A DNA stretch of 64,000 nt from Hymenobacter roseosalivarius DSM 11622 (GTDB lineage Bacteria; Bacteroidota; Bacteroidia; Cytophagales; Hymenobacteraceae). Positions 2,371 through 62,080 of this stretch are shown piece after piece (position 1 is the stretch's first letter; every line of letters begins with the position of its first letter). The position numbers were made by a program, and so were the translations under genes. The stretch spans positions 62,001-126,000 of the forward strand of contig NZ_FWWW01000104.1 of assembly GCF_900176135.1 (NCBI RefSeq), written 5' to 3'. The notes beneath the pieces are model-generated. The model saw only the letters and a program-made list of their open reading frames with translations, did no database searches and was not told where the DNA came from.

Positions 2371-2852
2371 CCTGTGATGGGTCGCTCCACCGCGGCGCTT
2401 TCGGGCGGCGAGGAAAGTCCGGGCAACGCAGAGCACCCTGCTTCCTAACGGGAAGGATGGGCCGCAAGGCTCAGACAGCCAGTGCCACAGAAAATTACCG
2501 CCAGACGGTGAAATGATGAGTGGTGAAATGGTGAGTTTGATGTTCAATTCGCGCAAGCGGAACGATAAACTCACAAGTTCACCATTTCACTATCTCACCA
2601 TCGGGTAAGGGTGAAAAGGTGCGGTAAGAGCGCACCAGCGGCCGGGTGACCGGGTCGGCTGGGTAAACCTCAGGGGTTGAAAGACCAAATAAGCGGGCAC
2701 GCTGTCTGGCAACAGGCGGCACCGGGCGGCTCGTCCGGCGTTCGTGGGTAGGTTGATGGAGCCTGTCGGCAACGACTGGCCTAGATAAATGGTGGAGACG
2801 CCGAGCCCTCGGGCCCGGTGGACAAAACCCGGCTTATAGACTCATCACCCCA
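2371..2852 (+). ncRNA. rnpB: RNase P RNA, bacterial class A, with enlarged P12
   Basis: This is the catalytic RNA that trims tRNA 5' leaders. Diagnostic parts in order are the P4/J3-4 core GGAAAGTCCGGGC (about 2412), the J11/12-P12 region, GGTAAGGGTGAAAAGGTG followed by GTAAGAGCGCACC (about 2604-2638), the J15/16 side, AGATAAATGGTGGAGACG (about 2783-2800) and the closing ACAAAACCCGGCTTATAGA (2822-2840). GTGATG at 2374-2379 pairs with CATCAC at 2843-2848 to form P1. At about 480 nt it is roughly 100 nt longer than usual. The excess is a palindromic repeat at 2508-2604 that extends helix P12 (see the separate entry). The core sequences look intact, so it should be functional. A strong terminator follows directly. 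Confidence 0.93.
2508..2604. repeat. Family D palindrome inserted in helix P12 of RNase P RNA
   Basis: The left arm holds ATGAGTGGTGAAATGGTGAG and the right arm its complement (CTCACAAGTTCACCATTTCA, then CTATCTCACCAT). The arms pair into a long, slightly imperfect hairpin exactly where P12 would be. A second copy lies at 54131-54246; its left arm matches this one at about 27 of 30 positions. The two copies sit in unrelated contexts, which marks this as a dispersed element and not a normal P12. Confidence 0.85.
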
Positions 2853-2856
2853 GCAT

Positions 2857-2898
2857 CATCGGTCGTCGCAGCTTCGGTTGCGGCGACCGATTTTGTTT
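2857..2898 (+). terminator. Terminator of RNase P RNA
   Basis: ATCGGTCGTCGCAGC pairs with GTTGCGGCGACCGAT around a TTCG tetraloop and is followed by TTTTGTTTTT. Confidence 0.85.
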
Positions 2899-3030
2899 TT
2901 GGTTAACTGGGGGCAAATATTGACGGCAGTGGTGTAGAAATTAGATAATTACAATTTTTCATCTGTATCGTGTTCTTTTCTCACCGAATCATTCAATAAC
3001 TTTACTCACTAAACGGGTAATGCTTTTCGT

Positions 3031-13526: not shown

Positions 13527-13536
13527 TAACCCTCCC

Positions 13537-13584
13537 GTCATGCAGAGCGGAGCGAACGAGATGCTGCGCTCCGCTCTGCATGAC
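13537..13584. repeat. Family A palindrome A1, compact
   Basis: Perfect 18-bp arms GTCATGCAGAGCGGAGCG / CGCTCCGCTCTGCATGAC around a 12-nt centre, between convergent genes. It may act as a terminator hairpin, although no T tract follows. Confidence 0.85.
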
Positions 13585-13601
13585 CACCTATTTTGAAAAA
13601 C

Positions 13602-14066: not shown

Positions 14067-14178
14067 CACCTCCAAAGGTACGGCCCGGAATCCCTGCTTC
14101 CGCTTTTCAACTGCCGTACCGTCGTTCGTAAGCACGACGGTTTTTTGTTTTTAAACAGTCATCTGTTCTATTCAGAAC

Positions 14179-14274
14179 GTCATGCAGAGGCGAAGCCGAA
14201 GCATCTCGCGTGCAGTCGTTTGATTACTAATCCCGCTAAACACGCGAGATGCTTCGGCTCCGCCTTTGCATGAC
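14179..14274. repeat. Family A palindrome A2
   Basis: GTCATGCAGAGGCGAAGCCG... at the left is mirrored by ...TCCGCCTTTGCATGAC at the right. The inner arms read GCATCTCGCGTG / CACGCGAGATGC. The centre holds ATTACTAATC, a short box shared with the other family A copies. Confidence 0.88.
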
Positions 14275-14321
14275 GGGCAGAAGAAATAAGCATTTCATAA
14301 CCAACCATTTAACCCCACCCT

Positions 14322-15124: not shown

Positions 15125-15243
15125 GTTAAAAACAGAACGTCATGCAGAGCGGAGCGAAGCATCTCGCTCGCGGTTGTCAGAATAGTAATCCGACGACTGT
15201 GAGCGAGATGCTTCGCTCCGCTCTGCATGACGTTCTGTTTTAA
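15125..15243. repeat. Family A palindrome A3, longest copy
   Basis: Outer arms TTAAAAACAGAACGTCATGC / GCATGACGTTCTGTTTTAA, inner arms GAGCGGAGCGAAGCATCTCG and its complement. The centre contains AATAGTAATCC, the complement of the ATTACTAATC box seen in A2. Confidence 0.9.
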
Positions 15244-15308
15244 ATGAATCTAAGGCAACACCTGATAGATTTCGCGCTAAATTTTGCCGCACGCCTTAAC
15301 TTGCCCAT

Positions 15309-17016: not shown

Positions 17017-17055
17017 GAAAAAAGCCCCCCAGAAACGTTTCTGGGGGGCTTTTTC
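17017..17055. terminator. Bidirectional terminator built from the GCCCCCCAG motif
   Basis: AAAAAAGCCCCCCAGAAAC pairs with GTTTCTGGGGGGCTTTTT. It separates the amidohydrolase gene from the convergent DinB gene. Each half is a copy of the motif that is dispersed through the genes. Confidence 0.9.
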
Positions 17056-21309: not shown

Positions 21310-21501
21310 AGCAACGCTTGACCGCAACCCCTAGCCCCAGTTCGCTTCATGCGCGAAGTCCGCGGGGAGAAAGGGAACTAGATTTCAGCTTTTCTAGCTG
21401 CTAGTTTATTCTAGCCCTCTATCTTTTTAAAGTTCGTTCCCCTTCTCCCGCGGACTTCGCGCATGAAGCGAACCGGGGCTAGGGGTTGCGGTCAAGCGTT
21501 G
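21310..21501. repeat. Long inverted repeat inside the Mo-hydroxylase operon (family C, C2)
   Basis: Two arms of about 65-70 bases, nearly perfect: GCAACGCTTGACCGCAACCC, then CTAGCCCC and TTCGCTTCATGCGCGAAGTC, mirrored at 21432-21501. The centre is AT-rich. It occupies the gap between the FAD-subunit gene and the small Cys-rich gene. The TTCGCTTCAnGCGCGAAGTC core also occurs in C4 at 52.6 kb. Confidence 0.85.
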
Positions 21502-21506
21502 CCCTC

Positions 21507-34775: not shown

Positions 34776-34799
34776 GCTGCTGCCCACAACCTCTAGAAC

Positions 34800-34893
34800 G
34801 TCATGCAGAGGCAGAGCCGAAGCATCTCGCGTGCTGATGCTAGGTTACTAATCTAACGGGGCGAGCGAGATGCTTCGCGCTGTTCAGCATGAC
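34800..34893. repeat. Family A palindrome A4 between araD and araA
   Basis: GTCATGCAGAGGCAGAGCCG and the complement TGCTTCGCGCTGTTCAGCAT GAC with inner arms GCATCTCGCGTG / GCGAGCGAGATGC and a central GTTACTAATC. The element occupies most of the gap inside an operon, so it may act as an mRNA stabiliser or attenuator. Confidence 0.88.
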
Positions 34894-34919
34894 AAACCTC
34901 CCTAAGATTCCTTTCTCTC

Positions 34920-43380: not shown

Positions 43381-43430
43381 CCAAAGTAACCCTTAAGACT
43401 TATTCCTGAATTAGAAAAGACGGATAGAAC

Positions 43431-43524
43431 GTCATGCAGAGCAGTGGCGAAGCATCTCGCGTGTCTAGTAGGATTAGTAACCAGACATCAGCACGCGAGA
43501 TGCTTCGCTCTGCTCTGCATGACC
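43431..43524. repeat. Family A palindrome A6
   Basis: GTCATGCAGAGCAGTGGCGA and its mirror TCGCTCTGCTCTGCATGAC, inner arms GCATCTCGCGTG / CACGCGAGATGC, centre GGATTAGTAACC. It directly follows half element A5. Confidence 0.88.
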
Positions 43525-43555
43525 GTCTTTCTTAAGCATATCAGCCAAATTCTTG

Positions 43556-49819: not shown

Positions 49820-49839
49820 ATTTGCCCCCCAGGCCTGTT

Positions 49840-49926
49840 CAACGATTGGCCTCACCCCCCGGCCCCCTCTCCCTTAGGCTTCGCGCCTCAAGCGAATCGG
49901 GGGCCGGGAGGTGAGGCCAATCGTTG
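49840..49926. repeat. Family C palindrome C3
   Basis: CAACGATTGGCCTCACCCCC at the left, mirrored by GTGAGGCCAATCGTTG at the right, with CCCCGGCCCCC / GGGGGCCGGG and GCTTCGCGCC inside. It follows the regulator gene. Confidence 0.88.
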
Positions 49927-52585: not shown

Positions 52586-52913
52586 CCTCTCCCGGCCGTT
52601 CAACGCGGGCCTCACCCCCCGGCCCCGGTTCGCTTCAAGCGCGAAGTCCCAAAAAGAGGGGGAGCCAGCTGCTCGGCCTACGCGGCTGCGTTGGCTGCCG
52701 CCTCCGCAACCGCTACCGTGTTATCTAAAAAGAAAAAGCCCCCCAGCAACAAGTTGGGGGGCTCTTTTAGTGTTAAGTTTAGTAGATGAAGCTGGTAGCC
52801 GTTCTGGAGGCGCCAGCCGACAGGGCGATGTAAGCCGAGCGCCTGGCGCCCCTCTTTTTGGGACTTCGCGCTTGAAGCGAACCGGGGCCGGGGGGTGAGG
52901 CCAACGGGAGAGG
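52586..52913. repeat. Family C palindrome C4, about 330 bp, with a central terminator
   Basis: The left arm has CCTCTCCCGGCCGTT, CGCGGGCCTCACCCCC, GGTTCGCTTCAAGCGCGAAG and AAAAAGAGGGG; the right arm is its complement, ending in GGTGAGGCCAACGGGAGAGG. The middle contains GGCTGCGTTGGCTGCCGCCTCC and, on the other side, GGAGGCGCCAGCCGAC. A GCCCCCCAGCAACAAGTTGGGGGGC terminator lies at the centre (52733-52769). No open frame of note. It fills the gap between the DUF294 gene and the aldolase gene. Confidence 0.85.
52733..52769. terminator. Terminator inside palindrome C4
   Basis: AGAAAAAGCCCCCCAGCAAC / TTGGGGGGCTCTTTT; stem of about 9 bp, flanked by A and T runs on both sides. Confidence 0.8.
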
Positions 52914-54037: not shown

Positions 54038-54130
54038 CATAAGTAGTGGTGTAAGATCAAAAGATATCGGGTGTGAAGTAGGTGCGGCAATTTCCAATAT
54101 TTTACCGACGAACCAAACCTGAAGGCAAAG

Positions 54131-54246
54131 GTGAGTTGGTGAGTGGTGAAATAGTGAGTTTAACGTTCTGTGTGCGACACTAACGCAGTATGCTCCTCAA
54201 AAACGTCAAACTCACCATTTCACTGGTTCACTACTCACCACTTACT
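54131..54246. repeat. Family D palindrome D2
   Basis: Left arm GTGAGTTGGTGAGTGGTGAA and ATAGTGAGTTTAACG; right arm AACGTCAAACTCACCATTTC, ACTGGTTCACTACTCACCAC. The left arm matches the P12 insertion in RNase P RNA. The right arm includes the stop codon and last residues of the neighbouring glycosidase gene. Confidence 0.85.
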
Positions 54247-56957
54247 CGTGTCAGGCGCAGATAATCCAGCATGGCCTGATTCACCGCGCCGTTCATATTT
54301 TCATTTGCCGGCTCAAACGCCAACGTGAGCGTCTGGGGGCCATTTTCGAGGCGTACCAGCACCGAGTTGGAGAAGCCCCAGTTCGACCACTCTGCTACTC
54401 CGCGCTGGGGCATTACGATGGTTCCCAGCTGTTGCTGACCGTTGCGCAGGGTGCGAATAGCGCATTTGTTCTCCGTATTGATAGGTCCGTTGCCGTTGGA
54501 GTAGCGGAAGTCAACAGCATACAAACCCGCTTCCGGCACCGTCACAGGAATAGCCAGCACCTTATTTTTCGTTTTGCTGATTTCCACGAAACCCTGACCC
54601 GCAAAGCCTTTGTACGGTAAAGTCGCCTTCGGAGCGACAGACTCCAGCTGATAGAGCTGGCTGAACCTCTCGCCATTCACGACCAGCGGCTCGCTGGCAA
54701 ATGATTCGAGGCCCGCTGCATCCACGGCTACCACCTGATACTCAGCGTACGCGGTGGCATCAGCCGGCGATTCTAGCGCCGTGGTAGTGGCTATGGCCTG
54801 GCCATTTTTCAGCACACGGTAGCTCCTTACCCCTTCCTGCTTGGTCCAGGTGAGGCGGTTGCTGGCAAAAGTAACTTCGGGCGTTGCGGGTGAGAATCGG
54901 TTCGCTACCTGATTCACCGGGGCCGTCTGGGGGGCTTTTCCGGCTAATAGAATGCGCACCTTATGGCGGCCGGTAAGCGTAGCCGGGATGGTGGCATTAG
55001 CCAGTGGCTTGTCATCTAAGGTGATGGTCGTTATTTCATTGCCGTAGCCTTCCATCTCCAAGTCCAGCACCGCCCCCCGATACTTGAAGTTTGAAAGCTT
55101 ACGTGGGCCGGCAAATGCCTTCGGCACAAACGGCCGGAATACGAGCTTATCCGCCTGAAAATCCATTCCAAACAGCACCTTGTACACCAGGCTAAGGCTA
55201 CCTGAAAGGCTCCAGAGCATGTTGCTGGAGTTGATTTGGGTGCCGGCAAAGTCGCCGTTCTCGGCCACGAAGTTTTCCTTGTTGGTCAGGAATAAGGCGG
55301 CAGGTCGGTAAATGGCGGAAATGCTTTCCGTCAGGGAGGCATCGTTGCCGACTTTGGCCGCCGCCAGGGCCCAATAGCTTTGCACGAAGGGCCACACCGC
55401 GTTATTATGATAAGGCGGAATGCCCGGTATCTGCGGGTAGATGCAGCTGATGCCGTAGGCCGTGGTGGGCGTTTTTTGCACCACTTGCTGCGCCCGCTCG
55501 CCCTCGGCCACGCCATACAGTACGCTTAGCGCCTCGCCCAGCGCCTCCGCCCGCGGCGACAGTATTTTGTAAGTACGGCCATACAGAAACTGCCCATAAT
55601 AACCCTTGTCAGCCTGCCACAGATGCTTGTTTATGCCTTGCTTGATTTGCTGGGCCAGCTGCTGGTGCTTGCTGGCCACGGCCGGCTCGCCGAGTATCTC
55701 GGCCATCTGGCTTAGCACTACGTTGGCGTGGTAATGCACGACATTCGTGCCCAGCGCCTCCGACTCATAAATATCCACGGGCTGCATCCACTTGGGGTAG
55801 GTTTGCTCGCGCCAATCCAGAAACGACGACTCGCCGCGCACCATGCCAGTCTGGGGGTTGTAAGCGTTCTGCACATCATCCTCAATCGACTTTTTGATAA
55901 TAGGATACACCGTGCGCAGCCACTGCTCATCGCCGGCCACTTTATAGATTTCCCAGGCGGCGGTGGCCCAAATCATCCGATCAGTGGAGCACGGATACGC
56001 GCCGCCCGTGCCCGTATCCTGAATAATACGGCCATCCTTGGATACTTTGCGCAGCAGGCTTTTCATCGCCACATCAGGCTGCAACATGGCCATCGACAGG
56101 ATGATGCTGTAACTGATATCGCGGGTCCAGACGCCGGCCCACTCCTTACCGGTGCGGAAGGTGCTGTCCGGCTCCACGGCCCGCCGCGCTTCCTCCAGCG
56201 CCAGATTATACAGCGCGTCGGCAATCGGATACGCGGAAGTGTATCGCGGCAAGTCATCGGTGTTAATTGACTTCTCCCACTTCCCGGCGGTGGTTTTGGC
56301 GGCCTGGGGGGCATTTAGAGTCAGCGTAACTTCGTAGATGCCATTGCCATCGGGGTCTTTCAGCTCCAGCTCGGGCTTATTCACCAGGTTGTCAAAATCC
56401 CAGCTAAGCGGGGCCGTATTGCCGGCCACGAATACCTGCTTGAAGTCTTCCTTATAAATTTTTTCGCCTTTGAATGTGGTGTAGTAGCCTTGCTTCTTAA
56501 ATGCCGCCAGCACCGGCCGCATGTCCAGCCGAATCTTCATGGGTGTATTGGGGGGCAAATATTTATTGGCCGGCACCGCCCCAGGATCCACGTAGCGCTG
56601 CCCAAACACGATAACCGGCAATTCAGCGGCACTCGCCCCCGCCCGCGGCACGGCAATAAACCGGTGGTCCTGGCCCGGCGCCAGCTCGTTATCCTTGCCG
56701 TTTATACTAAACTTAAAGTTGATTTCCGGGCTCTGAAACGCGTTGGCCGGGCTCTGGTAGTTCGACGTAAGCGACGTGGGCGACAGCACCCGCGCTACGT
56801 GCTTGCCCTGTACCACACTATCGCGATACACGGCGTACGCCTCCGACTTCCATACCGCCCCGGAACTGTCACCCGTATCAGTCGATTGCTGCATCTGACA
56901 AGCACTTAAGAGAGAACAAGCGAGCGCAAAGCCCGCTGGATAGGATAGTTGCTTCAT
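54231..56957 (-). CDS. Six-hairpin (MGH1/GH63-like) glycosidase lipoprotein
   Basis: 908 residues. The signal ends in LLSAC (lipobox, Cys20), placing it at the cell surface or periplasmic face. An N-terminal beta domain (about 25-240) has a NPE-type carbohydrate-module look. The (alpha/alpha)6 catalytic domain (about 250-660) contains EWAGVWTRDISYSIILSMAML (about 265-285), STDRMIWATAAWEIY, GMVRGESSFLDWREQTYPKWMQ (with Glu and Asp candidates), GISCIYPQIPGIPPYHNNAVWPFVQSYWALA (about 485-515) and MLWSLSGSLSLVYKVLFGMDF. A Fn3-like module (about 690-770) and a lectin-like C-terminal domain follow. The substrate is not evident. Its C-terminal VSGE and stop codon come from palindrome D2. Confidence 0.8.
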   Translation of the reverse strand: MKQLSYPAGFALACSLLSACQMQQSTDTGDSSGAVWKSEAYAVYRDSVVQGKHVARVLSPTSLTSNYQSPANAFQSPEINFKFSINGKDNELAPGQDHRFIAVPRAGASAAELPVIVFGQRYVDPGAVPANKYLPPNTPMKIRLDMRPVLAAFKKQGYYTTFKGEKIYKEDFKQVFVAGNTAPLSWDFDNLVNKPELELKDPDGNGIYEVTLTLNAPQAAKTTAGKWEKSINTDDLPRYTSAYPIADALYNLALEEARRAVEPDSTFRTGKEWAGVWTRDISYSIILSMAMLQPDVAMKSLLRKVSKDGRIIQDTGTGGAYPCSTDRMIWATAAWEIYKVAGDEQWLRTVYPIIKKSIEDDVQNAYNPQTGMVRGESSFLDWREQTYPKWMQPVDIYESEALGTNVVHYHANVVLSQMAEILGEPAVASKHQQLAQQIKQGINKHLWQADKGYYGQFLYGRTYKILSPRAEALGEALSVLYGVAEGERAQQVVQKTPTTAYGISCIYPQIPGIPPYHNNAVWPFVQSYWALAAAKVGNDASLTESISAIYRPAALFLTNKENFVAENGDFAGTQINSSNMLWSLSGSLSLVYKVLFGMDFQADKLVFRPFVPKAFAGPRKLSNFKYRGAVLDLEMEGYGNEITTITLDDKPLANATIPATLTGRHKVRILLAGKAPQTAPVNQVANRFSPATPEVTFASNRLTWTKQEGVRSYRVLKNGQAIATTTALESPADATAYAEYQVVAVDAAGLESFASEPLVVNGERFSQLYQLESVAPKATLPYKGFAGQGFVEISKTKNKVLAIPVTVPEAGLYAVDFRYSNGNGPINTENKCAIRTLRNGQQQLGTIVMPQRGVAEWSNWGFSNSVLVRLENGPQTLTLAFEPANENMNGAVNQAMLDYLRLTRVSGE

Positions 56958-61654: not shown

Positions 61655-61985
61655 GCCGGCCGTCCAACGCGGGCCTCCCTCCCCAGCCCCCTCCAACGAT
61701 GGGCCTCCCCCCCGGCCCCCTCTCCCAAAAAGAGGGGGAGCCTGACGCCCGGCCTACGCAGCCCCTTCGGCTCTCGCCTCAGGCACTGCTACCATATTAG
61801 CCGTAGAACTATCTTCTTCTACATAGAGAAGCCCACGACACTCAGTCGTGGGCTTTTTGCTGTTAATCGAGATGCGGTAGCGGTTGAGGAGGCGGCAGCC
61901 GACGCAGCCGCGTAGGCCGAGCGGCTGGCTCCCCCTCTTTTTGGGAGAGGGGGCCAGGGGGTGAGGCCCATCGTTGGAGAGGGCC
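61655..61985. repeat. Family C palindrome C5, about 330 bp
   Basis: Left arm: CCAACGATGGGCCTCCCCCC, GGCCCCCTCTCCCAAAAAGAGGGGGAGCC (in parts); right arm: the complement ending in GTGAGGCCCATCGTTGG. The middle has a hairpin AGCCCACGACACTCAGTCGTGGGCTTTTT. The structure parallels C4. It lies immediately before the restriction-modification gene. Confidence 0.85.
61829..61860. terminator. Terminator inside palindrome C5
   Basis: AAGCCCACGACACTCAGTCGTGGGCTTTTTGC: stem GCCCACGAC / GTCGTGGGC with a 4-nt loop, followed by T residues. On the complementary strand the A run gives it a weaker T tract. Confidence 0.8.
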
Positions 61986-62080
61986 GAGGGAATCGTTGAA
62001 CCAAAGCCAAGGAATCAAGCCCACATCACCCAAACCCCCTTATCTTCCCGCCCCCATTCCTGCTACCAAATTATCCCTGC

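Follow-up and report, generated by a model that had tools for sequence, protein, structure and literature searches.

In the window, the 64-kb stretch of DNA analysed here, the distal part of hairpin P12 in the RNase P RNA gene (rnpB) has probably been replaced by a dispersed, non-coding palindrome made of degenerate 7-8 nt words, P12 being a recurrent site for such elements in the family and the ribozyme remaining functional. About half of the relatives hold a similarly styled repeat in P12, often a different one, so that this hairpin is exchanged unusually often.

The window gene matches RF00010 over the entire model (cmscan; window 2374-2852, plus strand; model positions 1-367 of 367; E 1.5e-78), and its score of 245.1 bits lies far above the gathering score of 100. 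This confirms the class A core proposed in an earlier interpretation made from the letters of the window without database searches (hereafter the sequence-only reading). By its top tblastn protein neighbours, the source genome belongs to Bacteroidota, and perhaps to Hymenobacter (Hymenobacteraceae). No other RNase P RNA match is present in this 4.95-Mb genome, and each of the 100 family genomes searched likewise yields one match. In the covariance-model alignment, 85 inserted nucleotides fall into the hairpin that the ACAGAAA and AAGGGTGAAA boxes enclose, and this hairpin we take to be P12 after established RNase P nomenclature; the proposed enlargement of this helix, by about 97 nt, is thereby borne out. 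The gene, its palindrome, and an intergenic relative of the latter are arranged as follows.

2374..2852, plus strand: rnpB, RNase P RNA of bacterial class A, single copy (RF00010 full-model match).
2485..2494, plus strand: conserved box CCACAGAAAA on the 5' side of P12, the anchor for locating P12 in relatives (sequence reading and cmscan alignment).
2497..2504, plus strand: 5' base of P12 (ACCGCCAG; cmscan structure line and comparison with relatives).
2505..2545, plus strand: left arm of the palindrome with GGTGAAAT/GGTGAGT words; 2507-2545 is 85% identical to 54130-54168.
2550..2559, plus strand: palindrome apex CGC-GCAA-GCG, with GCAA at 2553-2556 (fold).
2560..2602, plus strand: right arm of the palindrome with TCACC words (sequence reading, repeat comparison and fold).
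2603..2616, plus strand: 3' base of P12 and conserved box TAAGGGTGAAA, the box at 2606-2616 (sequence reading and cmscan).
2860..2900, plus strand: GC-rich hairpin and T-run downstream of rnpB, terminator-like (sequence reading only).
54130..54246, no strand assigned: intergenic member of the palindrome family (repeat comparison and genome search; 54120-54260 folds with z -4.2).

The P12 palindrome is imperfect but folds strongly. Window 2490-2620 reaches -51.5 kcal/mol compared with -28.65 +/- 3.57 for shuffled sequences (z -6.4), and 0 of 200 shuffles fold as well. Its kinship with the element at 54131-54246, for which the sequence-only reading had counted about 27 of 30 matching positions, holds at 85% identity over 39 positions. 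A genome search with 2508-2604 as query returned 26 matching pieces at E <= 1e-3, merged by hand into 17 places, 16 of them besides the query; six further places match up to E 0.12. Since the arm match and the genome-wide matches lie far above chance, the repeat family is real. The dispersed copies, excised by hand, span 89-131 nt and carry arms of GGTGAAAT/GGTGAGT-like words, most of them with an inner part around TTTGACGTTC...GAACGTCAAA; matches to them sometimes include the non-repetitive apex, e.g. at G000:C51:34565 over query positions 1-91. No open reading frame spans 13 of the 16 extracted copies, whereas open frames of 59, 166, and 291 codons, only putative genes, enclose the remaining three. 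The insert thus belongs to a dispersed and mainly intergenic family, as had been supposed. By eye, fixed ends of the kind that a MITE would share with a transposase element were not seen in any of the 17 own-genome loci, P12 included, nor was a target-site duplication discerned, and an Rfam search of the 17 dispersed-copy loci gave no match at gathering score.

The window P12 scores higher against the P12 of two other genomes (103 bits for G041, 96 bits for G090) than against any dispersed copy of its own genome (at most 66 bits); elsewhere, certain dispersed copies of other genomes score 80-89 bits, the best listed being in G076 (89 bits). Thus, the element may have landed long ago or been transferred, and the window copy may have been inherited from an ancestor of several species. 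Of the landing in rnpB envisaged earlier, the dispersed element in P12 stands, whereas a recent arrival in this strain gains no support from these scores.

Other palindromic repeats are found in the window as well. A second dispersed family (CGTCATGCAGAGC...GAAGCATCTCGC) occupies five places in the 64 kb (13533-13597, 14171-14282, 15126-15244, 34795-34906, and 43426-43546); it also adjoins rnpB in several relatives and lies inside word-armed palindromes in G096. Large inverted repeats of the GGCCTCACCCCCCGGCCCC/CCCCTCTTTTTGGGA type, with arms of up to 86 nt and complementarity of up to 100%, are located at 52608-52902, 61681-61989, 49826-49926, and 21311-21502. Further, CCCCCCAG/CTGGGGGGC word hairpins beside T-runs recur at 17019-17055 and 52732-52768 and have a terminator-like look.

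Across the family, P12 exists in two length classes. After one of the 100 genomes was dropped (G039; 78% complete, partial match), the distance between the two boxes was readable in 99: 49 have a P12 of 17-37 nt and the other 50 one of 60-115 nt, the gap from 37 to 60 nt being empty. All six genera include long forms (18 of 33 genomes in the window's genus; 1 of 2, 8 of 33, 5 of 7, 6 of 8, and 12 of 16 in the others). The sequence-only reading had named, as the outcome that would speak against it, one fixed insert in all relatives combined with a lack of other genomic copies; instead, P12 varies and copies are present. Almost all long P12s (47 of 50) fold at z < -3 with a median of -6.2, the weakest three reaching -1.4, -2.0, and -2.5. 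Their arms are composed of words with a period of 7-8 nt, the word sequence varying between genomes. Arm self-matches peak at lags 7 (0.50), 14 (0.47), and 8 (0.41) compared with about 0.30 in shuffles; when lags 3-14 are compared, lag 7 wins in 21 genomes, lag 8 in 16, lag 14 in 12, and lag 13 in one, so that 7, 8, or 14 prevails in 49 of 50 long P12s versus about a quarter of shuffles.

Short P12s are not simple empty sites. Their entire distal stem differs from the long forms, and the comparison thus reveals replacement rather than insertion into a loop. In many genomes, the palindrome, as judged by eye, runs on from the P12 base without a break. As clustering of P12 by global identity gave no separation (shuffled mean 0.55, all sequences joined at 0.62), word types were assigned by hand.

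The rnpB core is equally conserved with long or short P12 in three genera. Median identities for long-long, short-short, and long-short comparisons are 0.767, 0.761, and 0.766 in the window's genus, and 0.869/0.866/0.869 and 0.915/0.914/0.906 in two others. Because the gene is single-copy and its core conserved, the window RNase P RNA is, to judge from its sequence, very probably active, in line with the earlier expectation.

The two P12 states interchange often. An rpoB tree was computed for 80 genomes, comprising all 50 with long and 30 of the 49 with short P12 (19 short ones of one genus being omitted). On it, the short/long state requires at least 25 changes, of which starred branches force 21; the tree is a quick search on one gene, with 57 of the 80 rows flagged for base composition. 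Shuffled labels need 24.2 changes on average, and the state is therefore without phylogenetic signal. Ten hand-assigned word types together with "short" need 38 changes, and the long forms alone 19 word-type changes compared with 9 if each type had arisen once. Near pairs illustrate this turnover. G053 and G082 have rnpB cores of 98.9% identity and P12s of 17 versus 98 nt; G085 and G099, also at 98.9%, have 60 versus 23 nt. In G019 and G024 (core 96.8%), both P12s are long and unrelated (0.60), and in G059 and G084, whose rpoB is 96.3% identical and whose rnpB cores are not nearest neighbours, P12 identity (0.64) is within the shuffled range (maximum 0.69). Other near pairs have similar P12s (G020/G040 0.96 and G020/G035 0.89 identical), and these look inherited.

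Each P12 word type that was tested also recurs at dispersed places within its own genome. Seventeen genomes, which are related and hence not independent, were compared for the window word type: all seven with this type in P12, including G076 as a mixed type assigned by hand, hold 19-32 pieces among the matches listed. Of the other ten, likewise among the matches listed, eight hold none, G062 holds 2, and G065 holds 25 pieces together with a short P12; carrying the family therefore does not force occupation of P12. Four other P12 types, searched against 16 genomes, gave at least 14, 15, 41, and 67 matches in their own genomes, counted as pieces rather than copies and with P12 itself included. 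These types are not exclusive to one genome: the first query finds more in G096 (at least 70) and G082 (at least 24) than in its own genome, and the second does so in G082 (at least 23).

Several word-armed loci were seen elsewhere in these genomes. In three species, the G082 word type has matches no more than about 350 bases away from rpoB (L277 at G016:C1:2834112, G036:C29:28372, and G053:C1:2884203). In G096, octamer (GTGAATGA)n arms surround a shared palindrome (CCCCGGAGGGGC...) at L446, L448, L450, and L451, forming nested palindromes. At L257, on contig C10 of G059 near 748292-749128, two word-armed elements flank a hisF-like ORF in opposite orientation; the surroundings are presumably a histidine operon, the gene names being taken from reading.

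A second site within rnpB is affected in rare cases. With P12 subtracted, the gene measures 357-389 nt in 96 of the 99 genomes, as against 411-416 nt in three of one genus (G003, G014, and G029; L092, L097, and L107). There, the block that we take to be P15-P17 spans 130-135 nt compared with a median of 88, and its enlarged hairpin consists of GGTAAATG/TTGGTAA words, the genomes' own P12 word type. In G009, which the rpoB tree places as sister to G003, this block contains a short TTCG hairpin and no second insert. Thus, repeats of P12 style can enter another peripheral RNase P helix, far more rarely. Not every structured RNA is affected, since tmRNA carries no insert: each of the 100 family genomes gives a single full match, 369-374 nt long (cut-off matches only).

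In the phylum at large, 247 genomes were searched, 244 of which contain an RNase P RNA match. Fifty genes from outside the family were read, the 30 best-scoring and 20 chosen mainly for length: P12 measures 22-50 nt in 47 and 65, 68, and 150 nt in three, in which the short-word style was not seen by eye. The 150-nt P12 belongs to a distant member of the Bacteroidota (L425, G242) and holds a AAATTCCAAAT-type palindrome, by eye apparently an independent insertion into the same helix.

A transposase or other mover for the P12 elements was not identified in a Y1_Tnp search of 10 genomes and 17 loci. The RAYT domain Y1_Tnp (PF01797) has matches in nine of the 10 genomes and none in G065, which nevertheless carries the repeat. 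When both strands are scanned for pairs of repeat words (the GGTGA type plus 12 others), one of 17 Y1_Tnp loci has them (L370, 2 matches). This is background level: 4 of 20 rpoB control stretches hold 1 match, while 18 of 19 positive-control regions hold 2-11, and the simple GGTGA pattern recovers 22 of 30 own-copy loci. RAYT was rejected as the mover because G065 lacks Y1_Tnp and word pairs near the 17 genes stay at background; a Y1 transposase flanked by repeats, the hallmark of REP/REPIN-RAYT systems, was not found. An autonomous element between the arms was also rejected, as no common ORF was evident among the 19 paired-arm regions, of 20 fetched, that were read by eye.

What the arms enclose bears on where the elements land. 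Nine of 13 arm interiors, chosen for wide spacing, are palindromic (z < -3 against mononucleotide shuffles) and four are not. The interior palindrome of L449 has counterparts in the window near 14175, 15135, 34796, and 43427, and at L257 the two arms are separate elements around one ORF. Word arms enclosing other palindromes suggest that hairpins are preferred landing places for word-armed elements. However, the other palindromes close to rnpB have not entered the gene, and where the 3' flank was read, in four cases, the terminator-like hairpin is intact and the palindrome follows after it; that this hairpin is spared counts against hairpins as a general target.

We propose that a dispersed palindromic repeat has replaced the distal P12 hairpin. 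Because the element is itself palindromic, its transcript would fold as one long hairpin, extending P12 outward from the catalytic core. As this would merely prolong a peripheral hairpin, the element may be tolerated in P12 with the ribozyme keeping its function, and such harmlessness may be the reason for its retention. Different lineages hold different word types in P12, the tested types being dispersed in the same genome too, and P12 forms with and without an element interchange often; the elements themselves are presumably mobile.

The strong folding of the long P12s, and their unbroken continuation from the P12 base in many genomes, would also be expected of a selected helix that serves protein binding, stability, or regulation, and the sequence-only reading had suggested a gain of function of this kind. 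We consider this very improbable: about half of the genomes do without the long form, with no phylogenetic pattern, and base pairing within P12 copies does not exceed that within dispersed copies. Between 11 P12 copies of the window word type, taken from several genomes, and 16 dispersed copies of the own genome, whose spans were set by hand, the median paired fraction is 0.71 versus 0.73 and the median energy per nucleotide -0.433 versus -0.519, P12 being the weaker (p 0.009). The palindrome is thus most readily explained as a feature of the element itself, with no sign of selection on the helix. As a long and almost continuously double-stranded extension of a peripheral helix, the hairpin also resembles the intervening sequences of rRNA, which are excised by RNase III. 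By this analogy, the insert would be cut out and the mature RNase P RNA would consist of two pieces, which we regard as improbable. A broader model appears unlikely to us as well, if less so: P12, and rarely a second helix, would act as an active exchange socket in Bacteroidota for hairpin-seeking word-armed palindromes that insert into or replace hairpins, word types would turn over faster than species, and the RNA hairpin may be excised as an intervening sequence.

Two further explanations deserve more weight, although we doubt both. P12 cassettes or whole rnpB genes could be exchanged between strains by recombination across the conserved flanks, so that many changes on the tree would be transfers. 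Highly conserved boxes indeed border P12 on both sides, and similar P12s occur in separate branches (e.g. G000, G041, and G090). Moreover, the nearest genome by rnpB core is the rpoB-nearest in only 28 of 80 cases and among the three rpoB-nearest in 54 of 80, and in the sister pair G059/G084 the partner's core ranks 12th. The core is, however, a short and noisy marker of about 370 nt, and in five of six pairs (G082/G053, G085/G099, G041/G065, G054/G042, and G019/G024) the core partner is the nearest, with rpoB rank 1-2, while P12 differs. Transfer alone also does not predict that the P12 word type follows the dispersed type of the same genome. Alternatively, P12 might lengthen and shorten in place by slippage and template switching, its likeness to dispersed repeats stemming from the same words genome-wide or from gene conversion; this, too, is conceivable rather than likely. 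The tandem 7-8 nt words of the arms, near-perfect octamer arrays in G096, and the replacement of distal P12 as a whole would fit, and the portion of PMC4692102 consulted proposes polymerase slippage for bacterial heptamer repeats. Stepwise slippage should, however, give intermediates, which the bimodal lengths lack, and some dispersed matches span the non-repetitive apex, as at the G000 locus mentioned above.

Replacement of distal P12 by a dispersed element, the reading we prefer, has its closest precedent in the STRR repeats in P12 of heterocystous cyanobacteria, and the present case extends that kind to Bacteroidota. STRRs, which Vioque described in 1997 (NAR 25:3471) in heterocyst-forming cyanobacteria, reportedly make P12 longer, show no relationship between close strains, and are dispensable in vitro. 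Both systems have repeats of 7-nt type inside rnpB, a lengthened P12, and unrelated repeats in close relatives; here, the long P12s are lengthened by tandem repetition of short words, and unrelated repeats are seen in G059/G084 and G019/G024. Judged by description, they differ in the host phylum, here Bacteroidota, in the degenerate 7- or 8-nt words, and in palindromes with their own apex that occur as whole units at scattered sites. The small dispersed repeats of Nostoc, reportedly described by Elhai and colleagues in 2008, are likewise hairpin repeats, often within heptamer arrays and with nested insertions; by description, they differ in their reported length of 21-27 nt. Rickettsia palindromic elements of about 100-150 nt land in genes without destroying them. 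In this they resemble, by description, the present palindromes, which belong to another phylum. REP/REPIN elements with RAYT are also dispersed non-coding palindromes in intergenic DNA; unlike these, the present elements have worded arms of about 40 nt and no RAYT association (G065 has 25 pieces among the matches listed and no Y1_Tnp).

The excerpt of PMC4692102 describes heptamer repeats of Xanthomonas and Nostoc as intergenic and greatly different between close relatives. They share with the present repeats the intergenic position, the 7-nt unit, and the variability between relatives, but are G-rich and of quadruplex type, and RNase P is absent from that excerpt. PMC2858038 cites Vioque 1997 (STRR in heterocyst-forming cyanobacterial RNase P RNA) on the point that P12 can sometimes be dispensed with, and PMC5771137, in the passages seen, merely annotates rnpB. 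A literature search that covered few subscription journals found no paper on P12 repeats in Bacteroidota.

Taken together, our analysis indicates that invasion of P12 by short-word repeats, known from one cyanobacterial group, also occurs in a distant phylum, and often, and it suggests that distal P12 is replaceable in nature. Consequently for this family, rnpB length and P12 sequence are unreliable markers, and rnpB offers one constant, alignable position where bacterial repeats that are otherwise hard to align can be scored for gain, loss, and replacement.
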